Origin: Melioribacteraceae bacterium
GTDB lineage: Bacteria > Bacteroidota > Ignavibacteria > Ignavibacteriales > Melioribacteraceae
DNA: 63,290 bases
NCBI GenBank assembly: GCA_021739765.1
Contig: JAIPBD010000024.1
Span: 1-63,290, forward strand
Direction of reading: 5' to 3'
Part shown: positions 1 to 60,551 of the stretch, piece by piece
Layout of the letters: every line of letters starts with the position of its first letter
How positions within the stretch are numbered: position 1 is the first letter of the stretch
Made by a program: the position numbers and the translations under genes
The notes under the pieces: generated by a model
The model's database searches: none
What the model was told of the DNA's origin: nothing
Seen by the model: the letters and a program-made list of their open reading frames with translations, nothing else

Positions 1-2461
1 TTGGAATAAAGCCTTCGTCCTTAATAACGCCAATTCTGTTTTTATCACTTAACCTCACTTGAGTAATCAACGATTTATCCTTCTTTGGTCTTGTACTTAA
101 AACCGTAATTTCATCACCGGTCAACCCATCAGCGGATACTTTTACTTTTATTTCCCCCTCTTCATCAGTTGATCTTATAATCGTTGTTATGGGCAAGTAT
201 GTGTACATAACTCCATCCATTGCCCAATTTTTATCGATATCCGTCATATAAATTTCCGGAGTTATAAGTTCGGCCGGTCCTTCAACACTCCAATGAAGAG
301 TTGGGTTCGTAGCAAGAACCGGATTGTTTTGAGCATCAACAGCATCAACTCGAATCACAGATATTCCATCACGACCTGCATTAATTTGAGGTTGTTTCGT
401 TGAGAGCACTAATTTTTTAGGTTCACCTGCCATTTGAATTTTATACTCAATCGACTCTTCTCCGGATCGTGCAACAGCTTTTAATTCGCCTTCTTCAACT
501 AAAATATTTTGAAATTCAACAGTGTGAAAATTTTCAGAATTCGGATGTAGAGCGCCCTGCGATTTACCATTAACAAAAAGTTCAACCTCTTCGCAATTGG
601 AATCAACTTGAAAGTTTTTTTTCTGTCCGATATATTTTTTTTGCCAATTGTGTGGTTGGATAAATATCATTGATTTTGTAGAATAATTTGCCTGCCATAA
701 ATAATACATGTATTTGGGAATTCGGTATAAGTCCGTCCAACCTTTTGGATTAATGTGTTTCAGAGGAACGTTTTCGTATTCTCTGTCCGCTCCGTGATCG
801 GCATATAACCATGCTACAACATTTTCATCAATTCGACCCCGAATACTGGCGTCTTTAACCCTTGCCATTTTGTGCTGCCATTCTTCCGTTCCCGCAGATT
901 GTCCGCTTTTAGGTTTTTCTTTTGTATTAACCGGTTCAAGATCGCGTACATCTTTGTTGTACCACCCACGAACCGTAACACGAAGTAGGTTTTCCATATC
1001 AAGATTTTTAGCATTATGAGTTACATATTCACCGTAATTTTCTGTTTTCCGCTCATGCAAAATTCTTGTTGTATCTTCCTCCCACGCCCATTTTGAATCA
1101 GCGGCATCATCTGTTTCATTGCCCACGCTCCAAAAGAAAATGCTCGGATGATTCCTATCGCGTCTGATCATTTCACGAACATTGGCCTCCTGGATTTCCT
1201 CTCCAAAGTCGATACTTTTAATATTGGGAACTTCTTCAGCAGTAATTATTCCGAGTGTATCGGTCAAATCATAAATTAAAGGATCGTTTGGATAGTGCCC
1301 GGTTCGCATAAAATTATGTCCGAGGTCATGTCTTATTTCGTACATTTCGTTTCTGTGAATCCATTTCGGCATCGCGTCTCCGAGCCATGGATACTCTTGA
1401 TGGCGATTTGTTCCATGAATATGTATTTGCTTACCGTTGACTAAGAGCCGGTTGGTTTCATAATTCCATTCGAACCACCGAATACCAAAAGTGCTGTGGT
1501 AAAGATCGATTATGGTTCCGTCAGACCGTAACTCGATTACGAGATTATAAAGATGGGGAGTGAGATTCGACCATAACTTTGGATTTAATATTTCATTACT
1601 TTTTATATTTATTTTAGAAATTTTACTATTCGGCAAGTCATAATCGCGATACATTGTATCGATAACAAAAAACTCTGAATCCAGTATATAAGCATAGACT
1701 TGAATTGATTTTTGCTTTTCCGATTCGTTTTTAATAAATGCATTTATATCGACAACTGCTTTTGTCGAATCAACTATAGGGGTAGTAATAAATGTACCGC
1801 CTTCATGTTCCGCTGAGCCTTGATACGGAATATATATATTATTGGTTACGACTATTCTTGCATCGCGATAAATGCCGCCGTAAACATTCCAATTGCCTGC
1901 CGTCATCGGAGGAATTCCTCCGAACTTATCATCACGCCGATTTGAAACCGCCATGCTGAGTAAATTTTCTTCGCCGTATTTTATATATTCGGAAATATCA
2001 AAATAGAAGCTGGTAAATCCGCCTTTGTGCTCGCCTACATAATTTCCGTTTACGTACAATCGTGAATATTTTTGAACCCCGTCAAATTCTACAAATACTT
2101 TTTTATCGGATAATGATTTATCGATTTGAATTTTTTTTCTGTACCAACCCCAGCCTTTCCACCAATAAGGATCGTCTCTTTCTGACGCATTTCGTATAAA
2201 TGGATGAACCTCCCCGGTAGTTTCAAATGTGCTCCAAGTATGAGGAAGCGCAATCGCATCCCAAGTACTATCATTGTAATTTATTGACGAAACGTTATCA
2301 TCGAATTTATGTTGTGGGAAGTAATTAAAAGTCCAGTCATTATTAATGCTTTCAACTATCCGTGGATTATCAAGCGCATATTTTTGCTGTGATTGAGAAA
2401 AACTTTGTACGTTAATTAACAGAAGAAAAATCGGAATAAGCGTATGAACATTTTTTAACAT
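1..2461 (-). CDS. Glycoside hydrolase family 2 protein (beta-galactosidase-like), C-terminus cut by window edge
   Basis: The minus frame opens with ATG at 2461 and stays open for about 820 codons to the left edge. It starts with a signal peptide (LIPIFLLLINVQSFSQ). The GH2 order follows: a jelly-roll sugar-binding domain to about residue 190 (ALPHTWS, WYRKKI, LYVNG), an Ig-like domain, a TIM barrel from about 300 (HIHGTNRHQEYP, NFMRTGHYPNDP) and C-terminal Ig-like domains. The predicted acid/base is E449 in FFWSVGNETDD. I see no clear nucleophile motif (usually EY or EFG); the expected area reads RIDENVVAWLYADHGAD. It follows the sulfatase gene by 26 bp and is presumably the last visible gene of the polysaccharide operon. 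It probably removes a terminal sugar from a desulfated oligosaccharide in the periplasm. The family is clear, but the substrate is unknown. Confidence 0.9.
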   Translation of the reverse strand, partial: MLKNVHTLIPIFLLLINVQSFSQSQQKYALDNPRIVESINNDWTFNYFPQHKFDDNVSSINYNDSTWDAIALPHTWSTFETTGEVHPFIRNASERDDPYWWKGWGWYRKKIQIDKSLSDKKVFVEFDGVQKYSRLYVNGNYVGEHKGGFTSFYFDISEYIKYGEENLLSMAVSNRRDDKFGGIPPMTAGNWNVYGGIYRDARIVVTNNIYIPYQGSAEHEGGTFITTPIVDSTKAVVDINAFIKNESEKQKSIQVYAYILDSEFFVIDTMYRDYDLPNSKISKINIKSNEILNPKLWSNLTPHLYNLVIELRSDGTIIDLYHSTFGIRWFEWNYETNRLLVNGKQIHIHGTNRHQEYPWLGDAMPKWIHRNEMYEIRHDLGHNFMRTGHYPNDPLIYDLTDTLGIITAEEVPNIKSIDFGEEIQEANVREMIRRDRNHPSIFFWSVGNETDDAADSKWAWEEDTTRILHERKTENYGEYVTHNAKNLDMENLLRVTVRGWYNKDVRDLEPVNTKEKPKSGQSAGTEEWQHKMARVKDASIRGRIDENVVAWLYADHGADREYENVPLKHINPKGWTDLYRIPKYMYYLWQANYSTKSMIFIQPHNWQKKYIGQKKNFQVDSNCEEVELFVNGKSQGALHPNSENFHTVEFQNILVEEGELKAVARSGEESIEYKIQMAGEPKKLVLSTKQPQINAGRDGISVIRVDAVDAQNNPVLATNPTLHWSVEGPAELITPEIYMTDIDKNWAMDGVMYTYLPITTIIRSTDEEGEIKVKVSADGLTGDEITVLSTRPKKDKSLITQVRLSDKNRIGVIKDEGFIP

Positions 2462-2487
2462 ATATCTCTCAAGTATTTTTAATCGGA

Positions 2488-4041
2488 TTAGTTGAAACTT
2501 ACGGTATCGTTTGTTTTGTTTTGCCACTCGTATATTTTGACTTCCAATTTTTTGATAATTCCTTCAAAATGTGAATCGTCAAACAGATTAGTTTCTTCAA
2601 AAGGATCTTCGTTTAAATTAAATAGTTGATTTTTATCTCTGTCACTCAAACACAACTTCCACCCATCGGGGGAAACAACAGTTCTTATGGATTGATCCGC
2701 CAGATATTCTCGATCAATTTTTGCAACATTGTCATCAGACTTAGGCAATCTTTTAGATAACGGTCTTAAAGTATTAGGATTCCATTCGATAAAAACATGA
2801 TCCTCAACCAGCTCTCCACCCAGTAAAAATGGGGCAAACGAATGTCCTTCTAATTCAACATGTTTCTTTTTATTTAAAAAGTCTAATAATGTTGGAGCCA
2901 AATCGATTTGGCTTACTGGGTTTTCAACAATTAATTGCTTTTTAATTTTTTGTGGAAACCTAATCATCAACGGAACTCGCACGGCTTCTTCGTACATAAC
3001 AGTTTTTAATGCCATTTTATGAGACCCCATCATGTCGCCATGTTCGCTCGTAAATACAACGATGGTGTTCTTTCGAAGTCCTAATTCATCCAGTTTATTT
3101 AGCACCTCTCCAACACTGGCATCAACTTGTGAAATTAAACCCCAGTAGTTTGAGATCATTTGTCTCCAGCTATTTTCATCTTTTAGCGAATATCCCTTTG
3201 CACCGTTTTCTATGAAATCATCTCGAAGTAATTGATTTCTTATCGGTTCGTTTTCTTCGAGAGGGTCGTTAAAATTTTTTGGCAGTTCAACATCCTCAGC
3301 GGAATACATATTATCATTCGGACCGTTAAAGGGCGAGTGCGGTTCGAAAAAACCGAGGAACAACATAAATGGATTATCCTTATTTCGTTCCAAAAACAAT
3401 TTACCGCGAAGTTCAACAAATTTAGTTTTGCTGTGTTCGATTGGTAATTTGCTTACAAATTTGCGCGAAAACGTTCCTTCTTTTTCGTCCGGGGAGTAGC
3501 CCTTTTCTATCAACCAATGATGATATGCGCTCAGTTTATCTTTCGGCTTCCCGGCTGAAAAATATTCAGAGTAGCCGTCCTCAATCGTTTCCCATTCCGA
3601 AAATCCGTGTTGCGGAAAAACTTCATCCCCTAAATGCCATTTACCGATATATCCGGTTTTATAATCACCATCATTTAATAATTCCGGAAGACATTTTGTA
3701 TCAGATTTTAACGGAATATTATTGGCAGTGCAGCTATTTGTATGTGGCCATAAACCTGTCATAATTGTAGAACGGGCGGGTGTACAAACGGGCTGTGAAA
3801 CATACGCTTTTCTAAAAACGACGGATTCGTTTGCCAATTTATTTAGATTCGGAACCCTAATTTTATGATTTCCATATACAGCGAGTGTGTCAGCCCTTTG
3901 TTGATCTGTAAGGATAAATAATAAGTTGGGTTTGGTTTTTGGAGATTCAATAAAACCAAACGAGGAATAAGCTGCAGTTCCAATCGCCGCCAACCCTGTA
4001 GTTTTGATAAACGATCTTCTGTTAAATGATGTGCTTCGCAT
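2488..4041 (-). CDS. Sulfatase (S1 family), Tat-like signal
   Basis: This 517-residue protein hydrolyses sulfate esters, probably on a polysaccharide. A Tat-like signal NRRSFIKTTG at residues 7-16 implies folded export to the periplasm. Metal-site residues lie in LTDQQRAD (44-51). The sulfatase signature CTPAR holds C86, the cysteine that is converted to formylglycine in this family. The second signature YIGKWHLG is at 131-138, and SEHGDMMGSHK supplies further metal and active-site residues. The length is normal for S1. Its start lies 1 bp after the stop of the next upstream sulfatase, so the two are surely co-transcribed and probably translationally coupled. The maturation enzyme is not in this window. 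The overall look is of a choline- or iduronate-sulfatase type, but the subfamily cannot be fixed by eye. Confidence 0.95.
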   Translation of the reverse strand: MRSTSFNRRSFIKTTGLAAIGTAAYSSFGFIESPKTKPNLLFILTDQQRADTLAVYGNHKIRVPNLNKLANESVVFRKAYVSQPVCTPARSTIMTGLWPHTNSCTANNIPLKSDTKCLPELLNDGDYKTGYIGKWHLGDEVFPQHGFSEWETIEDGYSEYFSAGKPKDKLSAYHHWLIEKGYSPDEKEGTFSRKFVSKLPIEHSKTKFVELRGKLFLERNKDNPFMLFLGFFEPHSPFNGPNDNMYSAEDVELPKNFNDPLEENEPIRNQLLRDDFIENGAKGYSLKDENSWRQMISNYWGLISQVDASVGEVLNKLDELGLRKNTIVVFTSEHGDMMGSHKMALKTVMYEEAVRVPLMIRFPQKIKKQLIVENPVSQIDLAPTLLDFLNKKKHVELEGHSFAPFLLGGELVEDHVFIEWNPNTLRPLSKRLPKSDDNVAKIDREYLADQSIRTVVSPDGWKLCLSDRDKNQLFNLNEDPFEETNLFDDSHFEGIIKKLEVKIYEWQNKTNDTVSFN

Positions 4042-4042
4042 A

Positions 4043-5446
4043 TTATTCCAGATAGAAATTATAATCCGGATTATCCTGCCGAGCTGTTTTCAAATATAAT
4101 TTTAGATCAGAAAATTCTTTTTCATAAAGGTGGGAAACTTCGAAAAGCTCTCTCGGATCATATCTCAGATTGTAGAACTCATAACCTTTGGCTGAACGTA
4201 ATATTTTCCAATCATCCTTTCGTGCCGCTTGATAGGATTCACCCTTGATCGTAAATTCCCAGTACACATAGTCGTGTTCTTTTTGAGATTTACCGGTTAA
4301 TGAGGGCAAAAATGAAATTCCGTCGGTATCCCCCTTATAATCAGATTCGCTTAACTCAACCATTGTGGGGAAAAAATCCCAAAAAGTTGAAACGTGATGT
4401 GAAAATGAATTTGGATTTATTTTGCCCGGCCAACGTGCGATAAACGGAACACGAATTCCCCCTTCATATAAATCACGCTTACCACCTTTAAAGGGGCCGC
4501 TACTGTTGAAATAGTTCGGATCACCTCCATTTTTCGGGCTTGGTCCGTTATCACTTGTAAAGATGACCAAAGTGTTTTCATCAATGTTTAATTTTTTTAA
4601 TAGCTTGGAAATTTCACCGATGTCTTTATCCATTCTTGAAATCATTGCCGCGTAGGCAGCTCGGGGTGAATCAGTTTGGAATTCATCGTCTTTGTAAGGT
4701 TGTTCGGGATATTTCCCTTTATATAAATCCAAGGAATCTTCGGGGACATCTAAATCAGAATGTGGAATCGTATAAGGCAAATAAAGGAAAAAAGGCTCGT
4801 CTTTATTATTTTTTATAAAGTTCAAAGCTTCTTTCGTAAACAGATCGTGCACGTAAGATTTTCGATCGCCATTTAAATTTCCCGGTAAATGCTCCTTTTC
4901 TTCATTTCGCCAGATGTACTCCGGATAATAACTATGCGCATTTGCTTGATTTAAAAAGCCGAACCAATAATCGAATCCATGTTTATTTGGTGTTCCTTCA
5001 GTTCCTGGTTCCCCCAGCCCCCATTTCCCGATGATTCCGGTTTTGTATCCCGCATCTCTTAAAACCTTCGCAACTGTTACGTCCGTTTTTCTTAGAGAGA
5101 CTCGGGCATTGTTTTTATCAAAGTTATCTCTGATAGTTGTGTGGCCGGAATGGAAACCCGTCATCAAACAACATCTTGATGGGGCGCAAACCGTACTTCC
5201 CGAGTAATGCTGGGTAAACCTCATTCCCTCGTTAGCGAGTTTGTCAATATTTTTTGTTTTGAATTTATCCTGACCATAACAACTTAAATCACCATATCCA
5301 AGATCATCAGCTAAAATATAAATAACATTTGGTTTTTTGTTTGATTTGGAAAAAGAGGCAAAATTTGCTTTCTGAGCAGCCATTAATCCAACAGTTGCCA
5401 TGCCTGTAGTTTTTAAAAAATTTCTGCGCGTATAATTGATTTCCAT
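4043..5446 (-). CDS. Sulfatase (arylsulfatase A-like, S1 family), Tat-like signal
   Basis: This 467-residue protein has a Tat-like N-terminus TRRNFLKTTG (6-15), then the classical arylsulfatase start ADDLGYGDLSCYG with the paired metal ligands D47 and D48. The signature CAPSR holds C87, the formylglycine cysteine, and TGIIGKWGLG is the second motif. FTSDNGPSPKNGG carries the later Asp-Asn metal ligands. All core residues are present, so it should be active after maturation. It sits between two other sulfatases and ends 1 bp before the next gene. The family members act on sulfated sugars or aryl sulfates; the operon argues for a carbohydrate substrate. It is clearly a different subtype from both neighbours rather than a recent duplicate. 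Confidence 0.95.
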   Translation of the reverse strand: MEINYTRRNFLKTTGMATVGLMAAQKANFASFSKSNKKPNVIYILADDLGYGDLSCYGQDKFKTKNIDKLANEGMRFTQHYSGSTVCAPSRCCLMTGFHSGHTTIRDNFDKNNARVSLRKTDVTVAKVLRDAGYKTGIIGKWGLGEPGTEGTPNKHGFDYWFGFLNQANAHSYYPEYIWRNEEKEHLPGNLNGDRKSYVHDLFTKEALNFIKNNKDEPFFLYLPYTIPHSDLDVPEDSLDLYKGKYPEQPYKDDEFQTDSPRAAYAAMISRMDKDIGEISKLLKKLNIDENTLVIFTSDNGPSPKNGGDPNYFNSSGPFKGGKRDLYEGGIRVPFIARWPGKINPNSFSHHVSTFWDFFPTMVELSESDYKGDTDGISFLPSLTGKSQKEHDYVYWEFTIKGESYQAARKDDWKILRSAKGYEFYNLRYDPRELFEVSHLYEKEFSDLKLYLKTARQDNPDYNFYLE

Positions 5447-5520
5447 TTTACATAACCTTAGAATAAAATCCGCGCCGATTCAAAATTACCACATAAAAAA
5501 CCGACGCGTGGAGACACTAA

Positions 5521-6987
5521 TCAGAATCCATATTTTTCAATTCTATATTCTATAACTTTATCCAACTCCTTTTTTGATTCTGGAATTGAACCAAGATCGC
5601 CTGTTGAAACGATCCAATCATCTAATATTTTTCTATGTTTTTCAAGCTGCACCGAATAGTTAGGATCGTTTGCCAAGTTGTTTGTTTCAAACGGATCGGC
5701 CAGCAAATCATAAAATTCCTCTTCCGGTTTTGATTCCGCCATAAATGCTTGCTGTGTTTCCGTTAATTTATTTTCAGCGTGCAAATCCTTCATTAATTGA
5801 AGGACCGGATATCTCGTATCTTTGTATCTGTTTTGCTGCGTATAAGGCAGTTCCGGGAAGAAGTTTCTGATGTAATTAAAATGTTTCGAATGAACGCTTC
5901 TGACCCTGTCAACGGTAGCATCCGCGCGGTCTCTGGCTCCGATAATATAATCTCGTTCGGGTATATTATGATCTAAGAATGGTATTCCTTCCATATAGGA
6001 GGGGATGTCAATTCCGGCTAATTGAAGTGTTGTTGCCGTCAGATCAATTCCACTTACCATTTTGTCATTAATTTTTCCAGCTTCAATTTTACCGGGCCAC
6101 CGCACGATCATAGGAATATGAAGGCCGGGATGATACAACCATTGTTTAGCCCTTAACATTGCGCGACCTTCATCGGCAAGGAAAAACACAACTGTATTTT
6201 CAGAAAGTCCTTCCTCATCAAGTCGGTTCATTAATTGACCAAAAAATTCATCGGTCATTTGTATCGCGTTTAAATATGTCGCCCAATCTTCCCGGGTAAT
6301 TTTATGGTCGGGGTAGTATGGTGGAATCGAAATTTTATCAGGATCAACTTTTTTGCTGAACTTTTCGGCTTTTTCCCATCCCGGTCCCCGGTGTGTAGAC
6401 ATAAAAGTTAATTGAGCAAAAAATGGTTGCCCTTCTTGTCGATCACTCCAATCGGTTCCTTCAAAGACATCACCGTCGTATGCGAAATTAAAATCTTCCT
6501 TTCCTGATCCGCGAAAACCGATTTTCTTATTTTTGCTCCCTTTTTTGTTCGGATTGTCATTTACCGTATAATATCCTGCTTCTTTTAAGTATTCGGTAAT
6601 CGGTTTTATTCCATCGGGCAGCGGTTTCTTAAATTCATCCAAAGTTCTGTGGTTGTGAGCACCGATAGAAGTTTGATACATTCCGGTTATCATCGCCGAT
6701 CTGCTGGGAGAACAAATTGAGCAAGTTGTGTAAGCGTTGGTATATCGGGTTCCTTCGGTGGCGAATTTATCGATGTTTGGAGTTTCCACGTCATGGTTTC
6801 CATAGCAGCCCAAATCCGGACAAATATCTTCCGCCATAACCCAAAGAATATTTGGTTTTGCAGAGTTTGAAGAATTAAAATGCGAATTGTGATTTGCCTT
6901 TATATTTTTAGGCATCAATATGTTCGGGATCATTGCGGCTCCAAACGAAGCCGCAGTAGTTCCCTTTATAAAATTCCTTCTATCCAT
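5521..6987 (-). CDS. Sulfatase (heparan N-sulfatase-like S1 type), Tat-like signal
   Basis: This 488-residue protein begins DRRNFIKGTTAASFG, a Tat-like signal starting at residue 2. The metal-site region AEDICPDLGCYG (52-63) has Glu-Asp (E53, D54) where arylsulfatases have Asp-Asp. The signature CSPSRS places the formylglycine cysteine at C92. The second motif is degenerate (GYYTVNDNPNKKG) and lacks the GKWHLG of the other two sulfatases, a pattern I associate with the N-sulfoglucosamine sulfohydrolase-like branch. STHRGPGWE follows at mid-protein. It lies 18 bp after the propeller gene and 74 bp before the next sulfatase, so it belongs to the same operon. The different active site suggests a different sulfate position or linkage. 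Substrate unknown. Confidence 0.93.
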   Translation of the reverse strand: MDRRNFIKGTTAASFGAAMIPNILMPKNIKANHNSHFNSSNSAKPNILWVMAEDICPDLGCYGNHDVETPNIDKFATEGTRYTNAYTTCSICSPSRSAMITGMYQTSIGAHNHRTLDEFKKPLPDGIKPITEYLKEAGYYTVNDNPNKKGSKNKKIGFRGSGKEDFNFAYDGDVFEGTDWSDRQEGQPFFAQLTFMSTHRGPGWEKAEKFSKKVDPDKISIPPYYPDHKITREDWATYLNAIQMTDEFFGQLMNRLDEEGLSENTVVFFLADEGRAMLRAKQWLYHPGLHIPMIVRWPGKIEAGKINDKMVSGIDLTATTLQLAGIDIPSYMEGIPFLDHNIPERDYIIGARDRADATVDRVRSVHSKHFNYIRNFFPELPYTQQNRYKDTRYPVLQLMKDLHAENKLTETQQAFMAESKPEEEFYDLLADPFETNNLANDPNYSVQLEKHRKILDDWIVSTGDLGSIPESKKELDKVIEYRIEKYGF

Positions 6988-7005
6988 GGATCAGTTCGCT
7001 TGGAA

Positions 7006-9147
7006 TTATTTGATTAAAATCATTTTCTTAGTTTGTATAAAATCTTGTGATACTAATTTGTAGAAATAAATTCCCGATGATAAATGAGTCGCGTTAAATG
7101 AAACAGTATAAGTTCCTGCACTCATTTGATCGTTTACTAATTCTCCGACCGTCCGGCCAAGTGCATCAAAAACTATTAATTGAACATCGCCTGAATTCGG
7201 AACACTGAATTCAATTTTGGTAGTTGGATTAAACGGGTTTGGATAATTTTGCGAAAGATTAAATCCTTCAGGAATAACTTCACTTCTATTAACTTCAACC
7301 GAAGTAACCATTACACCGGTGGTTATAACTTCATCACCTTGACCCGTTACAACCGCGGTTCCACCATTAAACATAAAAACACCACGCAGTTTTGAAGTTG
7401 AGCCACTCTCTTGTTTTGTCCAATTATTCCCACCATCTGTAGTTAAAATCACCAATCCGTTTTGTCCGACAGCTAATCCGTTGTTATCATCCATAAAGTA
7501 ACTACGCCACATTTTCTCGCCTTCGGGGTAATCGATAGTTGCAAATGTTGCTCCGCCATCTGTTGTTTTTTGGATTCCGCCATCACCAATTACCATAAAT
7601 GTTAATGCATCCCAAACTTTTAGATCGCGAACAGTACCGGCTGCATTATAGACGCTATCCCAAGAAGCGCCTCCATCTGTGGTTCGATAAACGATATTTG
7701 TTTTGCCACCGGTGTAACCGATGTTTGCATCAACAAACGCGATACTATTTAAATCTTTACTTGCTTCGGTTGGATTTGTTACATAATCCCAACTTGCTCC
7801 GCCATCAGTAGATTTTAAAACAACATTTGTTCCACATGCAAATATCAAATCATCATCAACAACAGAATATCCAATTATATTTGAAGCGGTATCCAAATCT
7901 ATTGTGTTCCAGCTGTTGCCCGCGTCTGCTGACTGATAAATTTTACCGGAATTACCGAAGGCCAAACCATCTGTTCCCGCGTCACTAAACCAAATGTGGT
8001 TAATATGATCCAGCCCTGATCCAACAGGTTGAATCGGAGAAGTCCATGATCCGCCACCATCAACGGTTTTTAAGATGCCGCCTTCTGAAGTACCTACAAC
8101 AATCGTATTAGGACTAAGCATCCAAGCTGTGTTGATAGCCTTTGCCGAACTTTCCGGGAATGTTACATTTGTATAGTTAATTGTCCAGGAATCAAATCCG
8201 ACGACTTCTTCAACGCCCATTGTTATAATTTCATCTCCTTGCCCTGAAACCGCCCCAATTCCGGTATCGTATAAAAAGACTCCTCGAAGCTTGGAAGAGG
8301 ATCCACTCTCTTCTTTCGTCCAAGTTGTTCCACCATCGGTAGTTTTAATTACCAACCCATTTTGTCCAACTGCCAAGCCGTTGTTTGCATCCATAAAATG
8401 ACCACGCCATAACTTCTCACCTTCCGGATAAGTTATTTCCGTCCAGGTACCGCCACCATCGGTCGTTTTCTGAATTCCCGCATCACCGATTACCAATAAA
8501 TTTAACGCGTTCATAACTTGAATATCTCTAACGGTTCCGCCTGCATTATGCACGCTATCCCAAGAAACACCGCCATTAACCGTTCTGTAAACAATGTTGG
8601 TTTTACCACCCGTAAAGCCAACATTTGCATCTGCAAAACTAATCGAGTTTAAATCTTTACCTGAAGCCGTTGGATTTGATAAACTATCCCATGTTTCACC
8701 GGCATCGGTAGATTTTAAGACAATACTTGTTCCACAAGCATAAATGTTATTATCATCAACATAAGATATTCCATAAAGATCTTGTGAATACCCGGTAGAA
8801 ATTGAATTCCATGTATCACCGGCATCCACCGATTTATAAACTATACCGGCATTCGCCACAGTAAGCGCATTTGTACCTGCTTCGTTCATCCAAATATGAT
8901 TTATATGGCCGGTTGCGCCGGGTGAAATTTTTACAGACCAGCTTGCACCACCATTTACAGTTTTTACAATTCCTCCTTCTCCGGTAACAATTATTAATGT
9001 TGATTCATTAATCATGTGGATCGAATTAAGAGCCATCGCTGATCCATCAGGGAATATGGTTCCCGTGTGATTCAAGCTCCACTGAGCTTTTACTGTAACC
9101 GCGCCAACAATTAACATTAGGATTACTAAGTAAGTTTTTTTGAACAT
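7006..9147 (-). CDS. Secreted YCF48/BNR-type beta-propeller with internal duplication and T9SS tail
   Basis: I place the start at ATG 9147 because AAGGAGGG lies just upstream; an upstream TTG at 9174 lacks such a site. The product (713 residues) has a signal peptide (FKKTYLVILMLIVGAVTVKA). It then carries two tandem copies of a roughly 290-residue propeller unit, each rich in repeats of the form KTTDGGxTW and both containing YPEGEKxWR and DxNNGLAVGQNGLV. The C-terminus has LSQNYPNPFNPTTKIEF and ends in KKMILIK, a type A sorting domain for type IX secretion, so the protein should be cell-surface attached or released. No catalytic residues are evident; glycan binding or scaffolding is possible. 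It is co-operonic with the sulfatases (18 bp) and the barrel protein (36 bp). Confidence 0.85.
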   Translation of the reverse strand: MFKKTYLVILMLIVGAVTVKAQWSLNHTGTIFPDGSAMALNSIHMINESTLIIVTGEGGIVKTVNGGASWSVKISPGATGHINHIWMNEAGTNALTVANAGIVYKSVDAGDTWNSISTGYSQDLYGISYVDDNNIYACGTSIVLKSTDAGETWDSLSNPTASGKDLNSISFADANVGFTGGKTNIVYRTVNGGVSWDSVHNAGGTVRDIQVMNALNLLVIGDAGIQKTTDGGGTWTEITYPEGEKLWRGHFMDANNGLAVGQNGLVIKTTDGGTTWTKEESGSSSKLRGVFLYDTGIGAVSGQGDEIITMGVEEVVGFDSWTINYTNVTFPESSAKAINTAWMLSPNTIVVGTSEGGILKTVDGGGSWTSPIQPVGSGLDHINHIWFSDAGTDGLAFGNSGKIYQSADAGNSWNTIDLDTASNIIGYSVVDDDLIFACGTNVVLKSTDGGASWDYVTNPTEASKDLNSIAFVDANIGYTGGKTNIVYRTTDGGASWDSVYNAAGTVRDLKVWDALTFMVIGDGGIQKTTDGGATFATIDYPEGEKMWRSYFMDDNNGLAVGQNGLVILTTDGGNNWTKQESGSTSKLRGVFMFNGGTAVVTGQGDEVITTGVMVTSVEVNRSEVIPEGFNLSQNYPNPFNPTTKIEFSVPNSGDVQLIVFDALGRTVGELVNDQMSAGTYTVSFNATHLSSGIYFYKLVSQDFIQTKKMILIK

Positions 9148-9183
9148 GTGCCCTCCTTGTTTGTGAAAAACCAATTTTTTACA

Positions 9184-10692
9184 TCAAAGTTTTATTGAAT
9201 AAGAAATAATCGCCTTACTATTGTAATAGAATGAATAGTTGCGATTATTTAAGTATAAATCGTAATATTTAAGTTGTGAATAAGAGTAAGCGGCGAAAAT
9301 TTTACCGAAGAAAAAGTTATATCCGACTCCAAAACTGTAATGTGATTCGATCGGACCTAAATCGGTGATTGCGTTTGATTCGCCTACGAATGGTTTGCTC
9401 GAATTCCTGTAACCCGCAATTAGAGTAAGATTCTCCATTGGTTGGTACTCGATTCCCGCGCTAAAAGTTCTTGAATTAACGTATGAATTTGATTGTCCCA
9501 GTGTATCACTCGACTTTTCAAATTCCGATTTGCTGAGAGGATTGTATTTATAATCAATCGAAAATTTTAACAATTCATGCGGATGGAAAACAATTCCCAG
9601 TCCCAAGTTATATGGGAGATTTAGTTTATCCGTGCCTGAGCTGTCGAATGAAGTTGAAGATGTTGAATCAACAATTGAATAATTGTAATTCCATTCTCTC
9701 TCAAGAGTTGAAGAAGGAGTATATGTCAATCCGAAACTGAAATTATCCAAGTTTATCACGGTTCCGATTGTAAACGCTAAAGAGGAAAACTTTGAAACGC
9801 CTTGTTGTTTTTGCTCATTAAAATCATACGTGAAATTCCAGTCATCCAATCCGGATTTATTTTCAAAAACAAAAATCCCGACTCTGTCGAGTGCCAGTTT
9901 GTCATCGGTTTCGCCATTGAGGTAATTTGCTTTCAGACCAATTCTAAAAGTATTATCAATTTCATAAGCAAGACCAAAACTAAAATCGTTTAAAACTCCA
10001 ATTCTCTCGCGATTGTAAATTGACCATATTGGTTTAAGAGTATCCGTTTGAGGCAAACTGCCCGGCGCACCAAAATGCGGGTCTAAAGTGGTTCCGTTCC
10101 AATCCACATCATTTATTAATCGTCTATTATAAGAGAACCCGAACGCGAAATTTCGCCCCATTAATTCCATTGGTAATGCGGCTTGAATACTCAAAAAATC
10201 CGTTTTATCATTAGCCGTTTGAAAATCCGCGACATCTTCCGAGTAAGGATCATTTCCTCTATCCGGCAGGCTAAATTCATCGAGATTCCAAGCATAAGGC
10301 GAAGTTCTTTTTATCATTTCGCTAGCCCAAATTCCATTCTGCTCCATTGTCGGAGTATAAAGTCCATCGAGATACAATGAAAGATTCAAGCGTGGAGAAC
10401 CCGGAAGCCAAACATTGTTTTTTCTAAAACTGTTTGAACTGTGTGTTGCCGATACTTCGAATGACAACTTATCAAGCCCGATCATACCGGCCGGATTGAA
10501 GTTGATTGATTGTAACTCTCCCACTCTTCCGATAAATGATTCTCCAAGCGCCATACTCTTCGCGTTGTGTGACCCGAAATCAAATAATCCTTGATAACTA
10601 AGCAGACTTCCATTTCCTTGTCCGATTAATTTTGTACTAAATCCAATTGAAAGAATTATTATATAGAACGATATAGTTTTCATTAAATTCAT
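9184..10692 (-). CDS. Outer-membrane beta-barrel protein (PorV/FadL-like)
   Basis: This 502-residue protein has a signal peptide (MKTISFYIIILSIGFSTKLIGQ). The N-terminal motif AKSMALGESFIGRVGELQSINFNPAGMIGL resembles in layout the start of PorV/PorQ and FadL-type barrels (GxGxA/NPAG). It is followed by long alternating amphipathic strands such as FAFGFSYNRR, FSFGLAYEID, FRIGLKANYL and LTLIAGYRNSS, and it ends in a strand with an aromatic residue (ISYSIKL). It is therefore probably a 14-strand-like outer-membrane transport or assembly barrel. It lies 12 bp downstream of a second PorV-like gene. It may be an outer-membrane channel for oligosaccharides or a type IX shuttle partner. Assignment below the barrel level is not possible from sequence alone. 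Confidence 0.75.
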   Translation of the reverse strand: MNLMKTISFYIIILSIGFSTKLIGQGNGSLLSYQGLFDFGSHNAKSMALGESFIGRVGELQSINFNPAGMIGLDKLSFEVSATHSSNSFRKNNVWLPGSPRLNLSLYLDGLYTPTMEQNGIWASEMIKRTSPYAWNLDEFSLPDRGNDPYSEDVADFQTANDKTDFLSIQAALPMELMGRNFAFGFSYNRRLINDVDWNGTTLDPHFGAPGSLPQTDTLKPIWSIYNRERIGVLNDFSFGLAYEIDNTFRIGLKANYLNGETDDKLALDRVGIFVFENKSGLDDWNFTYDFNEQKQQGVSKFSSLAFTIGTVINLDNFSFGLTYTPSSTLEREWNYNYSIVDSTSSTSFDSSGTDKLNLPYNLGLGIVFHPHELLKFSIDYKYNPLSKSEFEKSSDTLGQSNSYVNSRTFSAGIEYQPMENLTLIAGYRNSSKPFVGESNAITDLGPIESHYSFGVGYNFFFGKIFAAYSYSQLKYYDLYLNNRNYSFYYNSKAIISYSIKL

Positions 10693-10704
10693 AAAATTAG
10701 ATGC

Positions 10705-11697
10705 CTAATCTCCCGAATATCCGAAGCTGAAACGGTGTACCGAATCCAAAAAGTCGCCGAATGGCACATAGGCATAATCAAACCTTATATTATTCCAGAA
10801 AAGCCCGAATCCTGCTGTGATTGTTTCTTCGTCAAAATTCATTTTATATCCACCGCGAATAAACACTAAATCATCGTAAGAATATTCCATCCCGATAACT
10901 TGTTGCTGTTCATAATCTCTCGGGTGAACTATCGAGTAAGCAAACAGTAAACGAGAATGAGGAATGTTTGTTATGAAAGCATCCGAATAATCAATCAAAT
11001 AGGCTGATATTCCCACTTCGAATGTTTGTGGTAACGGATATTTATCTTCAACGAATTGCACTTCGGGTCCGAATTGCCTAACCGCAGCTCCCAAACGAAT
11101 CGATTTAAATCCCGTATCGTACGTGAGCCCCGCATCAAACAATACCGAAGAGCTGCTTTCGAGGATTAAGTCTTCGCCTGCGTATTTTGCGCTAAATCCA
11201 AATGAAAATTTATCCGTCAATGATCGCGCATAACTCAAACCAACCATGTAAGCACTTGGTGAAATCGTTTGACCGGTTAATCCGGGATTAAAAGAACCAT
11301 TCGATAAAAACCCTAGGCTTGAAACTTTTGTAACCTGGATGGAACCGTAATCGGCGAAAATTCCGAACAACCCGACGACTCCAACGTTGCCCAAATTATA
11401 ACTTAAAGAAGCCGCATAGATTTTTGTATCAATGAACCAATCAACATGTGAAACGGAAACATCATAACTTTTTGTATTTACTATTCCTGCAGGATTATAA
11501 AACAAAGATTCTGAAGTCTGCGCGATCGCTGTAAACGATTCACCCAGTGCAGTCGCTCTCGCATTCGTCGAAACTTTTAGAAACTGAAACGATGTAGTTC
11601 CAACCTTTTGTGAATAAATTTCTTTAGGCACAAAAGAACAAGTCAACAATAAAATTGAGACTAAAGTTTTTGTGATATTTCTTTTAGTTAAAATCAT
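10705..11697 (-). CDS. PorV/PorQ family outer-membrane protein
   Basis: This 330-residue protein has a signal peptide (to about residue 29) and the family hallmark FLKVSTNARATALGESFTA followed by LFYNPAGI. It then has repeated barrel strands (YAASLSYNLGNVGVVGLFG, FSFGFSAKYAGEDL, IRLGAAVRQFG) and a terminal strand FSFGYSG. PorV/PorQ proteins are barrels linked to type IX secretion, where PorV shuttles cargo to the attachment complex. Its operon contains at least one clear type IX cargo (7006-9147) and a second probable one just upstream (gap 4 bp). A dedicated role in delivering those surface proteins is an inference. Paralogs in this group are numerous, so the exact role is uncertain. Confidence 0.85.
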   Translation of the reverse strand: MILTKRNITKTLVSILLLTCSFVPKEIYSQKVGTTSFQFLKVSTNARATALGESFTAIAQTSESLFYNPAGIVNTKSYDVSVSHVDWFIDTKIYAASLSYNLGNVGVVGLFGIFADYGSIQVTKVSSLGFLSNGSFNPGLTGQTISPSAYMVGLSYARSLTDKFSFGFSAKYAGEDLILESSSSVLFDAGLTYDTGFKSIRLGAAVRQFGPEVQFVEDKYPLPQTFEVGISAYLIDYSDAFITNIPHSRLLFAYSIVHPRDYEQQQVIGMEYSYDDLVFIRGGYKMNFDEETITAGFGLFWNNIRFDYAYVPFGDFLDSVHRFSFGYSGD

Positions 11698-11701
11698 ATT
11701 G

Positions 11702-13987
11702 TTATTTTATAACCAAAAATTTTCCTTTAGAGGTTTGGCCATCAGGAGTTCGGACAACGAAGTAATACATTCCTGACGCCAGTTCTTGGAAATTCCTCGA
11801 AATCTGAAGCCAAGTAACAGAATAAACCGGTTCGTCATGTTCAATTGATTGAATTAACTGACCAGCAAAAGAGTAAATATTGATTGTACATTTTTCCGGT
11901 AATCCGTAAAAACCCAACATCCCTTCTGCAGCTTCGCCTTCGAAACCGGATGAGATATAGAACGGATTAGGTACAACATGTACTTCATCGAGCTTTGTTA
12001 CCGCCTTTATCGATCGGGTATGTTTTACAAAATTTGTCTTTCCGCTATAATTTCCATTTGCGTCCGAGGAAACAATCGAATAATACTTGGTTTCACCAAC
12101 TTTAAATGTCGGATCGATATCTTCATATAAATACGAATTGCCGGATGAATAATTACCGACGGAGACGGAATCCAGTAATTTCCAAGGTCCGATTCTTGAT
12201 TCACTTCGGTAAATGAAATACTCATTTACAGGCCCCGTTAATTTTGGATGCGCAAAACTTTCAACATGATTTTCCCACGAAATAGTTACCGGTCCTTGCT
12301 CCGTGCTCGAAGCGGTGAAGATTGGTGCGGGAGGCGGCACATCTAAATTATAAACTCCTTTTTCCGGGTTTTCCGTTGGCCATAAAAATCCGGCGACAGG
12401 TCTTTTAGTTGTTTGATCAAATGGGATTGAAACACCTCTGTAAGCTTCCCAAGCTTTGTGGGTAACATCTTGAACGGACACCACGTCTGAATTTACATAG
12501 TCTGGAATTCCAAAATCCGCGACATAATCTTCCGTTAATACTTGTCCATCAATAGAAACTTTGGTGTTCCAAGAATTCGCGATATTCCATTGTTTGTAAT
12601 CAACTCCGCCCATTAATTGTTTCGATTTTTCACCACCAAATCCAGCTACTTCAGCCAAAGAAAATTTCAATATTTCACCTTGATCGAGAGTATAAGGACC
12701 GAACATTAATAATCTTTTTGCGGCTCTTTGACTGTCATCAAACAGATATGCCGCGCGTCCTTCCCATTCTGCGGATGGTGGTTCATAATCTGTTCCGGTT
12801 TGGTAGATGGCTTCTTTGTAATCAACATCCATCCAACCGAGTTGCTGCACGCGAGTAGAGTATGATTGTTTTTCGTTCAGGTTATTATATGGTTGCTTGA
12901 GGCGTTTATTGTTATCAATCTCGATGTAGTTGCCTCCACCATCCTGAGTCAATGTTCCCTGAGTAACCAATTCTGATTCATTAACGTTCGGGTTAGAAGG
13001 ATCAATTACAGCGAGGTGTTCGGTATCATAATATAGAATAGTAAAACCGACTGCTTGCGGACTACCGAGTCCACCGCCATTTTTTCCGGTTTGAGCAAAT
13101 TCAAGGAATAAATCAGCGTCAGGCTCCGGTTTCCCCGCTTTTGTTGTATCTCCGGCGGTTCCACCATCTTGAGAATAACTTAACCAGTAGTCAGGATCGT
13201 GCCATCCTTTTAGATCGCTGTATCCAAGAGCCAAGTCATCAACCAGTCCGGGTTTGTTTTTCCATTGTCGATACCATCTTTGGTAACCATACAATGATGG
13301 ACCCAAACTATAATCAAAAGAAATTATAACATCTCGGAGTTGTTCGGTTTGTTCAATTTCCGGATCGCCATCAATATTGCCTGTGTATTCAAATTCATAT
13401 TCATAAATGATCATATCATCATAATCGGGATAACTCCAAGCCCTTGAAGTTCTGGTAACTGTGATTCCAAGATTCGTATTCCATTTGGAGATTATTATTT
13501 CTTCCGCTTCATCCGGATCATAAGAAGCATTTAATGTTCCATCGGGATTAAGTGGGAAGTTTTCGATTTTTTCAATTGAAAGAGGAAATGCCCAAATGTC
13601 ATCCGGCAATTCCGGTAAATCACCCTTTCCGGTTCCTCCGCAAAACGAATAAATTCGTTTAGCTGTACCGGGTTTACTTACTAAATTTCCGGCTAACCAA
13701 ATGCCGCCGCCCCAAGCATTATGCTGACCGCTGTATTCGCGAGAATTAACTACTGTCGCGGAATAACCGGGCCATTCCATTGATGGACTTAAAATTTTAT
13801 CAAAACCTAATATTTGTGCCGGTCGCCCAACTTCACCGGTATTGTAAATAGTTTGATGCAAAACACCGCGCGTATGAGTTCTGAAATCTTTGGATTGTGC
13901 ACTACTTTCGATATACGTAAAAAGCGTTATCACAAGTATAATTTGAGTTAAAAGTTTCGCGCAATATTTTTGGTTATTTGTATTCAT
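11702..13987 (-). CDS. Large secreted protein with FN3-like and T9SS-type C-terminal domains
   Basis: This 761-residue protein has a signal peptide (AKLLTQIILVITLFTYIESSAQ). A long N-terminal region of unknown fold contains RTHTRGVLHQTIYNTGEVG. A fibronectin III-like stretch at about 555-660 contains PVTISWENH and YFIYRSES. A C-terminal domain resembles type IX sorting domains (VVPNPFYISSG, GMYYFVVRTPDG, ending KGKFLVIK). I do not recognise a catalytic motif. It lies 1 bp after the TonB receptor gene and 4 bp before the PorV-like gene. This is the place where SusD would stand in a Bacteroidota locus, so it is a candidate surface glycan-binding partner of the receptor. That role is inference from position only; there is no SusD-like sequence. 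Confidence 0.75.
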   Translation of the reverse strand: MNTNNQKYCAKLLTQIILVITLFTYIESSAQSKDFRTHTRGVLHQTIYNTGEVGRPAQILGFDKILSPSMEWPGYSATVVNSREYSGQHNAWGGGIWLAGNLVSKPGTAKRIYSFCGGTGKGDLPELPDDIWAFPLSIEKIENFPLNPDGTLNASYDPDEAEEIIISKWNTNLGITVTRTSRAWSYPDYDDMIIYEYEFEYTGNIDGDPEIEQTEQLRDVIISFDYSLGPSLYGYQRWYRQWKNKPGLVDDLALGYSDLKGWHDPDYWLSYSQDGGTAGDTTKAGKPEPDADLFLEFAQTGKNGGGLGSPQAVGFTILYYDTEHLAVIDPSNPNVNESELVTQGTLTQDGGGNYIEIDNNKRLKQPYNNLNEKQSYSTRVQQLGWMDVDYKEAIYQTGTDYEPPSAEWEGRAAYLFDDSQRAAKRLLMFGPYTLDQGEILKFSLAEVAGFGGEKSKQLMGGVDYKQWNIANSWNTKVSIDGQVLTEDYVADFGIPDYVNSDVVSVQDVTHKAWEAYRGVSIPFDQTTKRPVAGFLWPTENPEKGVYNLDVPPPAPIFTASSTEQGPVTISWENHVESFAHPKLTGPVNEYFIYRSESRIGPWKLLDSVSVGNYSSGNSYLYEDIDPTFKVGETKYYSIVSSDANGNYSGKTNFVKHTRSIKAVTKLDEVHVVPNPFYISSGFEGEAAEGMLGFYGLPEKCTINIYSFAGQLIQSIEHDEPVYSVTWLQISRNFQELASGMYYFVVRTPDGQTSKGKFLVIK

Positions 13988-13988
13988 A

Positions 13989-16964
13989 TTAAAATTTTAT
14001 TACGGTTCCTACTCTGAAAGATCTGGGAGAATTACTGATTATTCTTGCTCTCCAACTTGTTATGTATGGGGATTCTTCATCGACACTTGCTTCTTCAAGT
14101 GACTCGATTCCATCTCGTTCTAATTTTGTAAGCCGAATAATATTTGTGTATGTCGAATACGAATAATGTTTCTCGTTCAGAATATTAAATCCTTCCAAAT
14201 AAACTGTTACGTTAGTTTTACCGAAATCGAACTTTTTTTGGATTCGGAGGCTCATATCATTTTCCGTACGAGTCTCTTTATTAAACAATAATCCTTTTCC
14301 GTCGGGATCCCACGTATACGGTCTGCCGGTCATCATTTTATAGGTAAGGCTCGCCGAAAATCCACTAAGAGGAAGCGTACCAAAAACTTCAGGACCGAAA
14401 TTCTTTGGTGTTTGGAAACGTAGGTTTGCAACTACCCGGTGTTTACGGTTAAAATCGAGTGTAACATCTTCCGGATCGGGAAGATCAATTGTTTGTCCGG
14501 AGGAAGTTGCTGTTTCATAAAAAGAAATTGGATTATCGAATGGTGTGGCGGATTTACCGGATGCGTCCTGGTAATTATACCGAAGAATTGAGCTGAAAAA
14601 TCCCACCCGTTTTTCAAGACTGATATGAAAGCCTTTGATATTTGCGTAATCAAGATTTGAAAACGTATAATAAGGAACGAAATTTTTATCAAAATAAATT
14701 GATTGCTGTATTAAATCCTGAACATCTTTATAATAAGCACTTATTTCCAGCTTAATATCGAAAGGCAAACCCTGAACCAAACCAATGTCGTAAGCGATTG
14801 TCTGCTCCGGTTTTAATCTCGGATTACCGAGTTGTAATACTTGCCCCGAACCTGAAACTTCAGTGGTAAGAATTCTTTTCATTGGCGGCCGTTGAATAAA
14901 CACGCCATAATTCAAGTAAACCACAGATTCAGCGGTTATCGGAAATGAGATTCCGACACGTGGTTGTAATTTACCGAAGAATGAAGTTTCGTCTTTTTCC
15001 GCATATTCTTCACTTTGAGCCGGACCTGAACCGGGATCGCTCGGATCAAAATTGGGATTTCTTAATGGAGAATAAATGTTGCTTAAATAAGTATAATTGA
15101 AATCATAGAAGTCGTAACGCAAACCGATGTTCGCGATCATTCCTTCAAATTCCATTTTGTCTTGAATGAATAACGCGCCTTCGTATGGGAAAACGCTATA
15201 TCGTTCGATTTTTGATTCGGCAACAGTATTTAAACCTGCCAAATTATTCACGTTCAAGTCATAATAAGTGAATTGGATTCCAGCTTTTACAAGGTTGTTT
15301 TTAGATAATTGACTTGTTAATGTTGATTTAAGATTATAGGTTTTTGATCGTTCGTAACTGATAAACGGATTAAAATCCCCGACTCTAAATCCGGAAGGAT
15401 TGTTGATATACCAATCGGCATACAAGATATCATAAGCCGCTAATGAGTCGCTTTCTTTTCTGTATAACCCTTCCTGTAAAAAATCCGGTCGTTCTTCCGA
15501 CCTTGTATCCAAAAAGTCTAAACTGATTTCTCCGAAAGCGGAATTACTAAAAACATGATTCCAAGAAAGACCGATTTGATAAACATTCTCGGTAATTTTG
15601 GGAATACCAATTTCTCGATCAAATGCCCAATCCACAAACGAACCGGCGTTAACTTTATTAACAAATTTATCGTAATAGTTAAAATTAACTTTAAACTTAT
15701 TGCTTGTATCATATTTGAAAACCAAATTGCTCATAACTTGCATTTCTCTGTTGGGATTGGGAGTCGGGATAATCCCATAATTCTCCTTATATCTTCCGGC
15801 AACAAAAAGTCTAAGTTTTGAGGCAATAGGTCCGCCTACGGAAAAATCGAACCTGACATCCGGTTTATTCAAATATTCCCAACCAACTTCACGAACCATT
15901 TGCATCCATTGGTTCCGTGCGAATGTCGCGATTCTCAAACTATCTTCCGAGTTCGAAAGAAAATTCAGATACCGATCAAATGGTCCGAGATTTGTTCCCG
16001 GATTTTCCGGGTTGTTATTAAACAACCATTCTGATGGTTCTTTTAAATCCGCATAAAATGGCATATTTTCCGGTGCGTAGAAACTTCCGCCCCAGGTATC
16101 ATAACCGGGCAAGTTGGATGTTAATTCGAATGATGTCGTCCAACTGTTCCCTCCTTCCTTCGTTACAATATTAACAATCCCCGATTGCGCGTTTCCATAT
16201 TCCGCGCTAAAACCGCTTGTGTAAACCTCCACTTCTTGCAGTCCGGTTGTTAAAGGTTGAAATGAGCTGTTGTTCGAAATAGGGTTTACGATGCTTGATC
16301 CATTTACAAGATAAAGAGATTCACCTGTTCTTCCGCCGCGAAAATGATTATCAACCACATCCGCTTGAAGTTCCAAAATGCTTTGAATATTTGTGACTCC
16401 CGCGAGCGACTCCAATTCGGGAACGGTGTAAGATTGTTTCGAAGATGTTTGATCGATTTCTATTTTTAACTCATTATACGCGGTGATAACCACTTCATCG
16501 GTTTCAAACGATTTTTCGCTCAATCCAAAATCAACCAAAGTTGTTTTATCTATAGACACTTTAACATCTTTTTGAACCGAGGTTGTGTATCCGATGTATG
16601 TAGCTTTTATGGAATAAGAACCGGGAGGGATATTTAATATATAATAGTCGCCATTTATATCCGTTGCCGCGCCATAGGTTTCTGACATTTTAACTTCGGA
16701 ACCATTTTCGAGTTTTGAAACAAGGATGATATTTACTCCGATTAACGGTTCACCTGTCTTTGTGTCTAATACTGTCCCCGCAATTTTTCCCGTTTCTCCG
16801 GCAAATGTGACTTGTGTGAAAACAAAACTTAAAATCAAGAATAGCTGTGGCATGTAAAATCGATAAAAAATCGACTTTGAAGGAGAGATAAGATTAACTC
16901 TATTTCGGTGAATCAGTTTGATTGTGTTTACTCTCAATGTTTTATGAATAATCAAGCTCAACAA
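13989..16964 (-). CDS. TonB-dependent receptor with carboxypeptidase D-like N-terminal domain
   Basis: This 991-residue outer-membrane active transporter comprises a signal region (PQLFLILSFVFTQVTFA, cleavage near A55) and a carboxypeptidase-regulatory-like domain at about 59-148 (GKIAGTVLDTKTGEPLIGVN). A plug follows (NIQSILELQADVV, HFRGGRTGESLYLVNGSSI, GNAQSGIVNIVTKEG). Next comes a 22-strand-type barrel with GVFIQRPPMKRIL and RPYTWDPDGKG, ending in FRVGTVIKF with a terminal Phe. ATG at 16964 gives an unusually long pre-signal segment; ATG at 16853 starts directly at the signal peptide and is a good alternative. It is the first gene of the operon and probably imports sulfated oligosaccharides. 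It faces the membrane-bound regulator gene at 17324 across a 359-bp divergent gap. Confidence 0.92.
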   Translation of the reverse strand: MLSLIIHKTLRVNTIKLIHRNRVNLISPSKSIFYRFYMPQLFLILSFVFTQVTFAGETGKIAGTVLDTKTGEPLIGVNIILVSKLENGSEVKMSETYGAATDINGDYYILNIPPGSYSIKATYIGYTTSVQKDVKVSIDKTTLVDFGLSEKSFETDEVVITAYNELKIEIDQTSSKQSYTVPELESLAGVTNIQSILELQADVVDNHFRGGRTGESLYLVNGSSIVNPISNNSSFQPLTTGLQEVEVYTSGFSAEYGNAQSGIVNIVTKEGGNSWTTSFELTSNLPGYDTWGGSFYAPENMPFYADLKEPSEWLFNNNPENPGTNLGPFDRYLNFLSNSEDSLRIATFARNQWMQMVREVGWEYLNKPDVRFDFSVGGPIASKLRLFVAGRYKENYGIIPTPNPNREMQVMSNLVFKYDTSNKFKVNFNYYDKFVNKVNAGSFVDWAFDREIGIPKITENVYQIGLSWNHVFSNSAFGEISLDFLDTRSEERPDFLQEGLYRKESDSLAAYDILYADWYINNPSGFRVGDFNPFISYERSKTYNLKSTLTSQLSKNNLVKAGIQFTYYDLNVNNLAGLNTVAESKIERYSVFPYEGALFIQDKMEFEGMIANIGLRYDFYDFNYTYLSNIYSPLRNPNFDPSDPGSGPAQSEEYAEKDETSFFGKLQPRVGISFPITAESVVYLNYGVFIQRPPMKRILTTEVSGSGQVLQLGNPRLKPEQTIAYDIGLVQGLPFDIKLEISAYYKDVQDLIQQSIYFDKNFVPYYTFSNLDYANIKGFHISLEKRVGFFSSILRYNYQDASGKSATPFDNPISFYETATSSGQTIDLPDPEDVTLDFNRKHRVVANLRFQTPKNFGPEVFGTLPLSGFSASLTYKMMTGRPYTWDPDGKGLLFNKETRTENDMSLRIQKKFDFGKTNVTVYLEGFNILNEKHYSYSTYTNIIRLTKLERDGIESLEEASVDEESPYITSWRARIISNSPRSFRVGTVIKF

Positions 16965-56708: not shown

Positions 56709-60551
<3,843 letters not shown>

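Follow-up and report, generated by a model that had tools for sequence, protein, structure and literature searches.

How polysaccharide eaters of the Ignavibacteriales and of Candidatus Kapabacteria take up sugars is an open question, because susCD genes are scarce in the gene clusters of the former and absent from those of the latter, as noted in one paper (PMC10576277). The window analyzed here, a stretch of 63,290 nucleotides from a Melioribacteraceae bacterium, carries an operon that bears on this question. It encodes a TonB-dependent receptor, three sulfatases, and a GH2 glycosidase, and the place of SusD is taken by a 761-residue putative secreted protein, here called S, followed by a PorV-family barrel. 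The original prediction was that these three proteins may replace the SusC/SusD pair as a glycan-capture complex in this lineage. We found that the receptor, S, and the PorV-family barrel form a real, conserved, multicopy module. We consider it fairly probable that the operon is a polysaccharide utilization locus in which this trio serves as the capture complex instead of SusC/SusD.

Operon structure

The window is a complete contig (C28) of a 37-contig, 4.54-Mb genome. The nine open reading frames (ORFs) of the operon lie where the first reading had placed them, all on the minus strand, with the following domain calls from Pfam and NCBIfam searches.

13989..16964, minus strand, TonB-dependent receptor, 991 aa, with a carboxypeptidase-regulatory N-domain, a weak plug (Plug 20.6, cutoff 23.9), and a strong barrel (PF00593 89.3, cutoff 27)
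11702..13987, minus strand, S protein, 761 aa, with a beta-domain, an fn3-like domain, and a type IX C-terminal domain
10705..11697, minus strand, PorV/PorQ-family barrel, 330 aa (NF033709 187.6 bits, cutoff 90)
9184..10692, minus strand, FadL/TodX-like barrel, 502 aa (PF03349 41.1, cutoff 29.7)
7006..9174, minus strand, BNR/YCF48-like protein, 722 aa, TTG start, with a type A tail of the type IX secretion system (T9SS) (TIGR04183 46.4 bits, cutoff 23)
5521..6987, minus strand, sulfatase 1, 488 aa (PF00884, E 2.5e-48)
4043..5446, minus strand, sulfatase 2, 467 aa (PF00884, E 6.6e-66)
2488..4041, minus strand, sulfatase 3, 517 aa (PF00884, E 2.4e-55)
2..2527, minus strand, GH2 glycosidase, at least 842 aa, running off the contig start (PF02836/PF02837)

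From GH2 towards the receptor gene, the intergenic gaps are -40, 1, 74, 18, 9, 12, 4, and 1 bp, the first value depending on the GTG start chosen for GH2. The close packing on one strand had been read correctly from the sequence, as had the PorV/PorQ barrel after S, a second barrel, which is of the FadL/TodX type, and another type IX cargo, which is the BNR/YCF48-type protein.

The cassette is repeated in the genome

Matches to S and matches to the PorV protein were found at neighboring places in the genome. Reading 20 regions yielded 11 more TonB-S-PorV cassettes, 12 including that of the window. The gene order is TonB, S, PorV in 10 of them; L057 has the order TonB, PorV, S, and in L056 three ORFs separate TonB from an S gene placed upstream of it. 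The S proteins of the genome, 695 to 1261 aa in length, can be aligned as a single family. The cassette receptors account for 10 of the genome's 30 Plug matches, and those of the window and of C3:81k are missing from the 30 because their plug is weak.

An orphan S gene (C13:26806-30048) and an S-like doublet (C8) were excluded from the count of 12. The orphan (L059:6797-10051) has no adjacent receptor or PorV gene and stands behind a glycosidase-like gene; by eye, it is followed by a similar gene and by one for an ABC ATPase. SurA/PpiC-type peptidyl-prolyl isomerases adjoin several cassettes (L057:6304-7767, L060:15532-17223, and L061:11753-13171), and this protein cluster occurs in 23 loci.

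The trio was absent from all of 20 control regions, which were picked by hand at round-numbered positions; 16 genomes contributed, and 4 of the regions came from the window's own genome. Overlapping ORFs were dropped in reading; six loci were re-read without that filter, and the control regions were read with it. Since the trio occurs 12 times in this genome, recurs in three other sets, and is found in none of the 20 controls, its association is beyond chance.

The three proteins have also diversified together. Among the 12 paralogues, which lie within one genome, the distance matrices of the receptor, S (without its tail), and PorV correlated with r values of 0.87 to 0.91 (Mantel), and matrix pairs involving the S tail with 0.79 to 0.88; the p value of 0.0005 in each case is the floor of the test. 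For 106 trios (107 rows minus one with a 190-aa S fragment), r was 0.91 to 0.96, including a contribution of the genome tree, and nearest neighbors were concordant for 66 to 68.

Distribution in other genomes

The S profile matched in all 58 genomes of the same family (E ≤ 1e-15) and, across the phylum, in 122 of 296 genomes (E ≤ 1e-30). Matches per genome were counted as matched stretches; the number of candidates scored in each genome was limited to 14 for the family, 2 for the phylum, and 55 for a scan of 15 genomes. The loci of 40 relatives were hand-picked from the top S matches, one per genome and mostly far from contig ends. The receptor clustered with S in 40 of these 40 regions and PorV in 39, and the sole region without PorV stops at a contig end. 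In L117, the PorV gene is placed between the receptor and S.

A scan with the window-type S returned 55 loci (S761-type), labeled Melioribacteraceae, other Ignavibacteria, KSB1, Calditrichia, Neomarinimicrobiota, or just "Bacteroidetes bacterium" or "bacterium." Where there was room on both sides, the trio was present in 47 of 49 loci (46 of 48 before L195 was re-read). The exceptions are L162, with a receptor fragment and no PorV found, and L197, in which the receptor and S are in pieces. The FadL-like barrel is a fourth conserved member, present in 41 of the 43 S761-type loci with room downstream. All 20 loci sampled from other classes, hand-picked from the list of S matches in the phylum scan, carried the trio, and each of 15 genomes behind these loci had 3 to 19 matched S stretches. 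The cassette recurs in Ignavibacteria relatives, but its range extends beyond a single lineage, as other classes and phyla carry the trio.

The S protein and its barrel

The window S consists of a signal peptide, recognized by eye, a beta-domain (residues ~31-550), an fn3-like domain (~550-660), and a type IX C-terminal domain (~662-761). Pfam and NCBIfam returned nothing but tail models below cutoff, and no type A tail exceeded its curated cutoff (TIGR04183 20.9, cutoff 23). No lipobox was found in the window S; a lipobox-like string within the first 45 residues occurred in 3 of 107 S rows and lay, by eye, within the signal-peptide core.

The AlphaFold model of S is confident and mostly beta, and its structural matches are carbohydrate-enzyme-like. 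The beta-domain resembles the non-catalytic N-domains of GH94 and GH116 enzymes. Their catalytic (alpha/alpha)6 barrel is not in the model: the helices are short and scattered, and mainly strands follow residue 550, where the structural matches are the fn3-like domain and the tail. The C-terminal domain has a fold match to the PorZ tail.

Among the S761 proteins, 42 of 47 reached E ≤ 0.01 with the model of type A tails, and their tails in NCBIfam gave a PorZ match in 34 of 47 and a PorU match in 13 of 47. These and PDB profile matches suggested descent of the S tail from PorU/PorZ. On a model built on S tails, 167 cargo tails collected from the fetched loci reached a median of 19.6 bits against 127.4 for S, and 61 of 99 S tails scored higher on a PorU model than on a cargo model, with a median difference of 2.5 bits. 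These comparisons used PorU and cargo tails from the same lineage, and in their light descent by sequence was dropped and the structural likeness alone was retained. On these scores the S tail is a class of its own, and the operon holds two tail classes side by side, the ordinary type A tail of the BNR protein and the S tail with its own barrel.

A family profile of the cassette barrels (A2) matched PorV (6h3i) at an E value of 5.4e-32. The window barrel scores below the equivalog cutoffs of both PorV (67.9, cutoff 250) and PorQ (95.2, cutoff 220). SprA and PorU were the T9SS components searched, and the genome encodes both (SprA_N, E 5.1e-51; PorU, 950.7 bits, cutoff 420). PorU matched in 58 of 58 family genomes, in 57 of them above the cutoff. 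A second PorU-like protein of 1787 aa, under the PorU cutoff, is encoded at G000 C31:117757-122376, and similar long proteins occur in many relatives.

SusD and the receptor

In the window's genome, a search with PF07980 found nothing at E ≤ 1 and one with PF14322 nothing at E ≤ 0.001; PF12741, PF12771, and other such models were not searched. A profile of 10 relatives' SusD proteins, from six same-family and four other-class loci, matched no cassette or control-region ORF at E ≤ 1. Comparison of S with SusD profiles by hhalign gave probabilities of 3.8% and 2.8%, and homology of S to SusD was rejected by sequence. SusD was not among the 50 structural matches listed for the S model, a listing that does not prove absence. 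The operon thus lacks a SusD-like gene by two Pfam models, as the original prediction had it.

The family profile of the receptors (A3) had its best PDB match in Cir/FepA, with the SusC homologue 8aa4 weaker (1.3e-13), and no SusC model was among the NCBIfam matches of the window receptor at E ≤ 0.1.

Within the family, SusD-like_3 occurs in 12 of 58 genomes, and these genomes have fewer S matches (median 4.5 versus 13). Ten SusD loci were inspected, six of them from five genomes of the family and the other four from other classes; neither an S nor a PorV match lay within the 7 to 9.5 kb fetched around them. SusD was present in 152 of 296 genomes of the phylum sample. The window's class has 12 SusD-positive and 52 S-positive genomes, with 5 carrying both.

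Carbohydrate-gene context

A carbohydrate or sulfatase match was present in the fetched region of 9 of 12 own cassettes, 32 of 40 relatives, 35 of 55 S761-type loci, 9 of 20 other-class loci, and 4 of 20 controls, a contrast that is inflated because the queries were mostly drawn from cassettes. Of the 32 S761-type loci with 8 kb or more available downstream of S, 29 matched some carbohydrate query and 25 the uronate/sulfate/pectin set. Chondroitinase-B-type genes, whose matches may overlap with other beta-helix matches, heparinase/alginate-lyase genes, and GH88 genes occur in S761-type loci elsewhere. The trio does not sit mainly away from carbohydrate genes, the outcome that would have spoken against the prediction. 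Besides the window, the cassettes of the genome with such neighbors are as follows.

L053, sulfatase and rhamnogalacturonase-like genes
L054, GH106
L055, pectinesterases and pectate lyase
L057, DUF5060/CBM9 proteins
L058, ABC sugar-binding-type protein and GH2
L060, GH5 with galactose genes
L061, GH99
L062, GH3

Contig C11 begins with 139 bp that are identical to the reverse complement of the window's first 139 bp; therefore, the operon continues on C11. There, the same strand carries the rest of the GH2 frame, DUF1961, GH88, a 262-aa protein, two sulfatases, a T9-tailed oligogalacturonate-lyase-like protein, and GH9. A receptor beside glycan enzymes, the mark of a polysaccharide utilization locus, is thus present, and we infer that the enzymes share a single glycan. 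Because the operon has five sulfatases, GH88, and GH2, its target is probably a sulfated uronic-acid-containing polysaccharide. Seven of the 15 sulfatases of the genome lie within cassette loci, counting the two on C11. A 47-kb contig without an S cassette (G000 C37:1-47458) has all listed ORFs on one strand and encodes T9-tailed proteins and five sulfatases, along with a GH2 match.

Other genes of the window include the following.

17324..18589, plus strand, divergent regulator-like gene, 421 aa, with a weak winged-helix match (PF00486 15.1 bits, cutoff 26.2), a membrane segment apparent by eye, and a large C-terminal part
24294-27494, sensor-kinase-like protein with propeller repeats and Y_Y_Y and HisKA_3 domains
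56709-60527, LacZ-type GH2 with F5/8 type C and chitobiase-like C-terminal domains

Relatives of the regulator-like gene sit upstream of the receptor in six other S761-type loci (L151, L159, L161, L176, L179, and L182), and it may therefore control the cassettes of this arrangement.

Proposed mechanism and alternatives

In the mechanism that we propose, S would cross the inner membrane via its signal peptide and be exported by the type IX system, and its own PorV-type barrel would collect it through the C-terminal domain. S would then stay docked on this barrel, as is thought for PorU on PorV, PorZ on PorQ, and SprB on SprF, so that docking would stand in for a lipid anchor. The beta-domain would lie over the TonB receptor, bind oligosaccharides freed by surface enzymes, and pass them to the TonB-driven channel, and the sulfatases, GH2, GH88, and GH9 would desulfate and cleave the glycan.

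Several observations count against this scheme. The fold shared with GH94/GH116 N-domains shows no function. By sequence, PorU tails and cargo tails lie at much the same distance from the S tail (medians of 22.4 and 19.8 bits), so that PorU/PorZ-like docking rests on the fold and the gene pairing. The cassette PorVs formed one clade in just 24% of bootstrap trees, and a single origin is not shown. Nearest neighbors of the three proteins were concordant for just 4 to 7 of the 12 paralogues. Three of the 12 own cassettes have no recognized carbohydrate enzyme: L063 adjoins peptidases and AbgT, L056 a V-type ATPase gene, and L064 DnaE and a GWxTD protein. Carbohydrate matches were seen in just 9 of the 20 other-class loci. 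Finally, SusD is carried by 52 of the 70 S-positive genomes of other classes. Strict mutual exclusion of SusD and S is therefore rejected, and S is not a strict substitute: it dominates in the window's lineage without excluding SusD elsewhere. The two checks that could have gone against the original prediction, a SusD fold in one of the products and an occurrence mainly away from carbohydrate genes, did not refute it, but strict replacement does not hold.

The last of the cassettes just named, L064:6271-14064 (C32:66-74k), has the longest S (1261 aa) and also lies near an acyl-CoA dehydrogenase gene.

S and its barrel could instead be an ordinary type IX cargo and shuttle pair, in which the barrel would pick up S at the translocon and hand it to PorU for removal of the tail and attachment to lipopolysaccharide. 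S would then stand by itself on the surface, as a scaffold or for glycan binding, and the TonB receptor would have no lid. The type A tail matches of the S761 proteins and the PorU matches throughout the family agree with this, as does the shuttle role of PorV in Porphyromonas gingivalis (PMC5562754). However, the S tail scores as its own class, far from cargo tails, and nearly every S is accompanied by a PorV gene. Nor would it explain why the receptor is almost always present or why the paralogues diversified in a correlated way, and we regard this alternative as unlikely.

We give slightly less credence still to the idea that the cassette is a general outer-membrane unit for uptake or surface assembly, serving many large nutrients, whose proximity to carbohydrate genes mirrors the diet of the lineage. 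The cassettes next to peptidases/AbgT and housekeeping genes and the low share of carbohydrate matches in other classes would fit it, and RagAB-type relatives of SusCD import peptides. The carbohydrate matches in the other sets, well above those in controls, and the carbohydrate-enzyme-like fold of S argue against it.

That unrelated type IX genes lie by chance in an ordinary carbohydrate operon is very improbable: the three families do also occur separately and T9SS cargos are common in these genomes, as the 167 cargo tails attest, but the reading is refuted by the recurrence counts, with a trio that recurs and co-diversifies in each set examined and is missing from the controls.

Relation to known systems and implications

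With SusC/SusD of Bacteroidia, the cassette shares a TonB receptor with a carboxypeptidase-regulatory N-domain, an adjacent gene for a surface partner, multiple copies, and proximity to polysaccharide enzymes. By sequence, however, S is not SusD, and it has no lipobox; its model shows a beta-domain and an fn3-like domain, its tail is of the type IX kind, and a PorV-type barrel of its own accompanies it. The profile of the receptors is closest to Cir/FepA, the match to a SusC homologue being weaker. Because defining tests of SusCD membership fail, the cassette likely functions like SusCD but is not SusCD.

In PorU-PorV and PorZ-PorQ, a type IX-exported surface protein is likewise paired with a PorV-family barrel, and the S tail has the fold of the PorZ tail. 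Unlike these, S has neither a sortase nor the PorZ body, is multicopy, and is accompanied by a TonB receptor, and its tail sequence is not clearly closer to PorU than to cargo. For P. gingivalis, it has been suggested that PorV holds PorU and that PorQ holds PorZ (PMC5562754). The type B cargo SprB is encoded directly before the gene of its dedicated barrel SprF, and such cargos are suggested to be surface-anchored by their own PorP/SprF barrels (PMC9143113, PMC12618676). By analogy, S may be held on the surface by its PorV-type barrel. It differs from SprB-SprF in its type A/PorZ-like tail, its PorV-family barrel, and the TonB receptor in the unit. The BtuB-BtuG complex for vitamin B12 also combines a TonB receptor with a surface partner (PMC10404256). 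BtuG is unrelated to SusD but is a surface lipoprotein, whereas S is predicted to be type IX exported with its own barrel.

A keyword search of open papers, with subscription papers and preprints outside its scope, found no description of the TonB-S-PorV trio. In the portions available, the Melioribacter roseus paper gives one SusC, SusD, SusE operon (PMC3534657), the Caldithrix genome paper names TonB for vitamin uptake (PMC5317091), and a TonB review treats SusD in its Bacteroides glycan section and has no mention of "type IX" or "T9SS" (PMC11658791).

The cassette is a concrete candidate answer to the question of sugar uptake in groups poor in susCD and a marker for substrate prediction in uncultured phyla. 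The chances are about even that it represents a separately evolved outer-membrane machine for glycan capture in Ignavibacteria, KSB1, Calditrichia, and Neomarinimicrobiota, made of a TonB receptor, a type IX-exported lid with a sugar-enzyme fold, and a PorV-type anchor. If this is true, a secretion shuttle would have been turned into a permanent part of a nutrient importer. The cassette also points to a new role for barrels of the PorV family, which would permanently anchor a lid, and it probably carries out the sugar-capture job of SusC/SusD with unrelated parts in several phyla.
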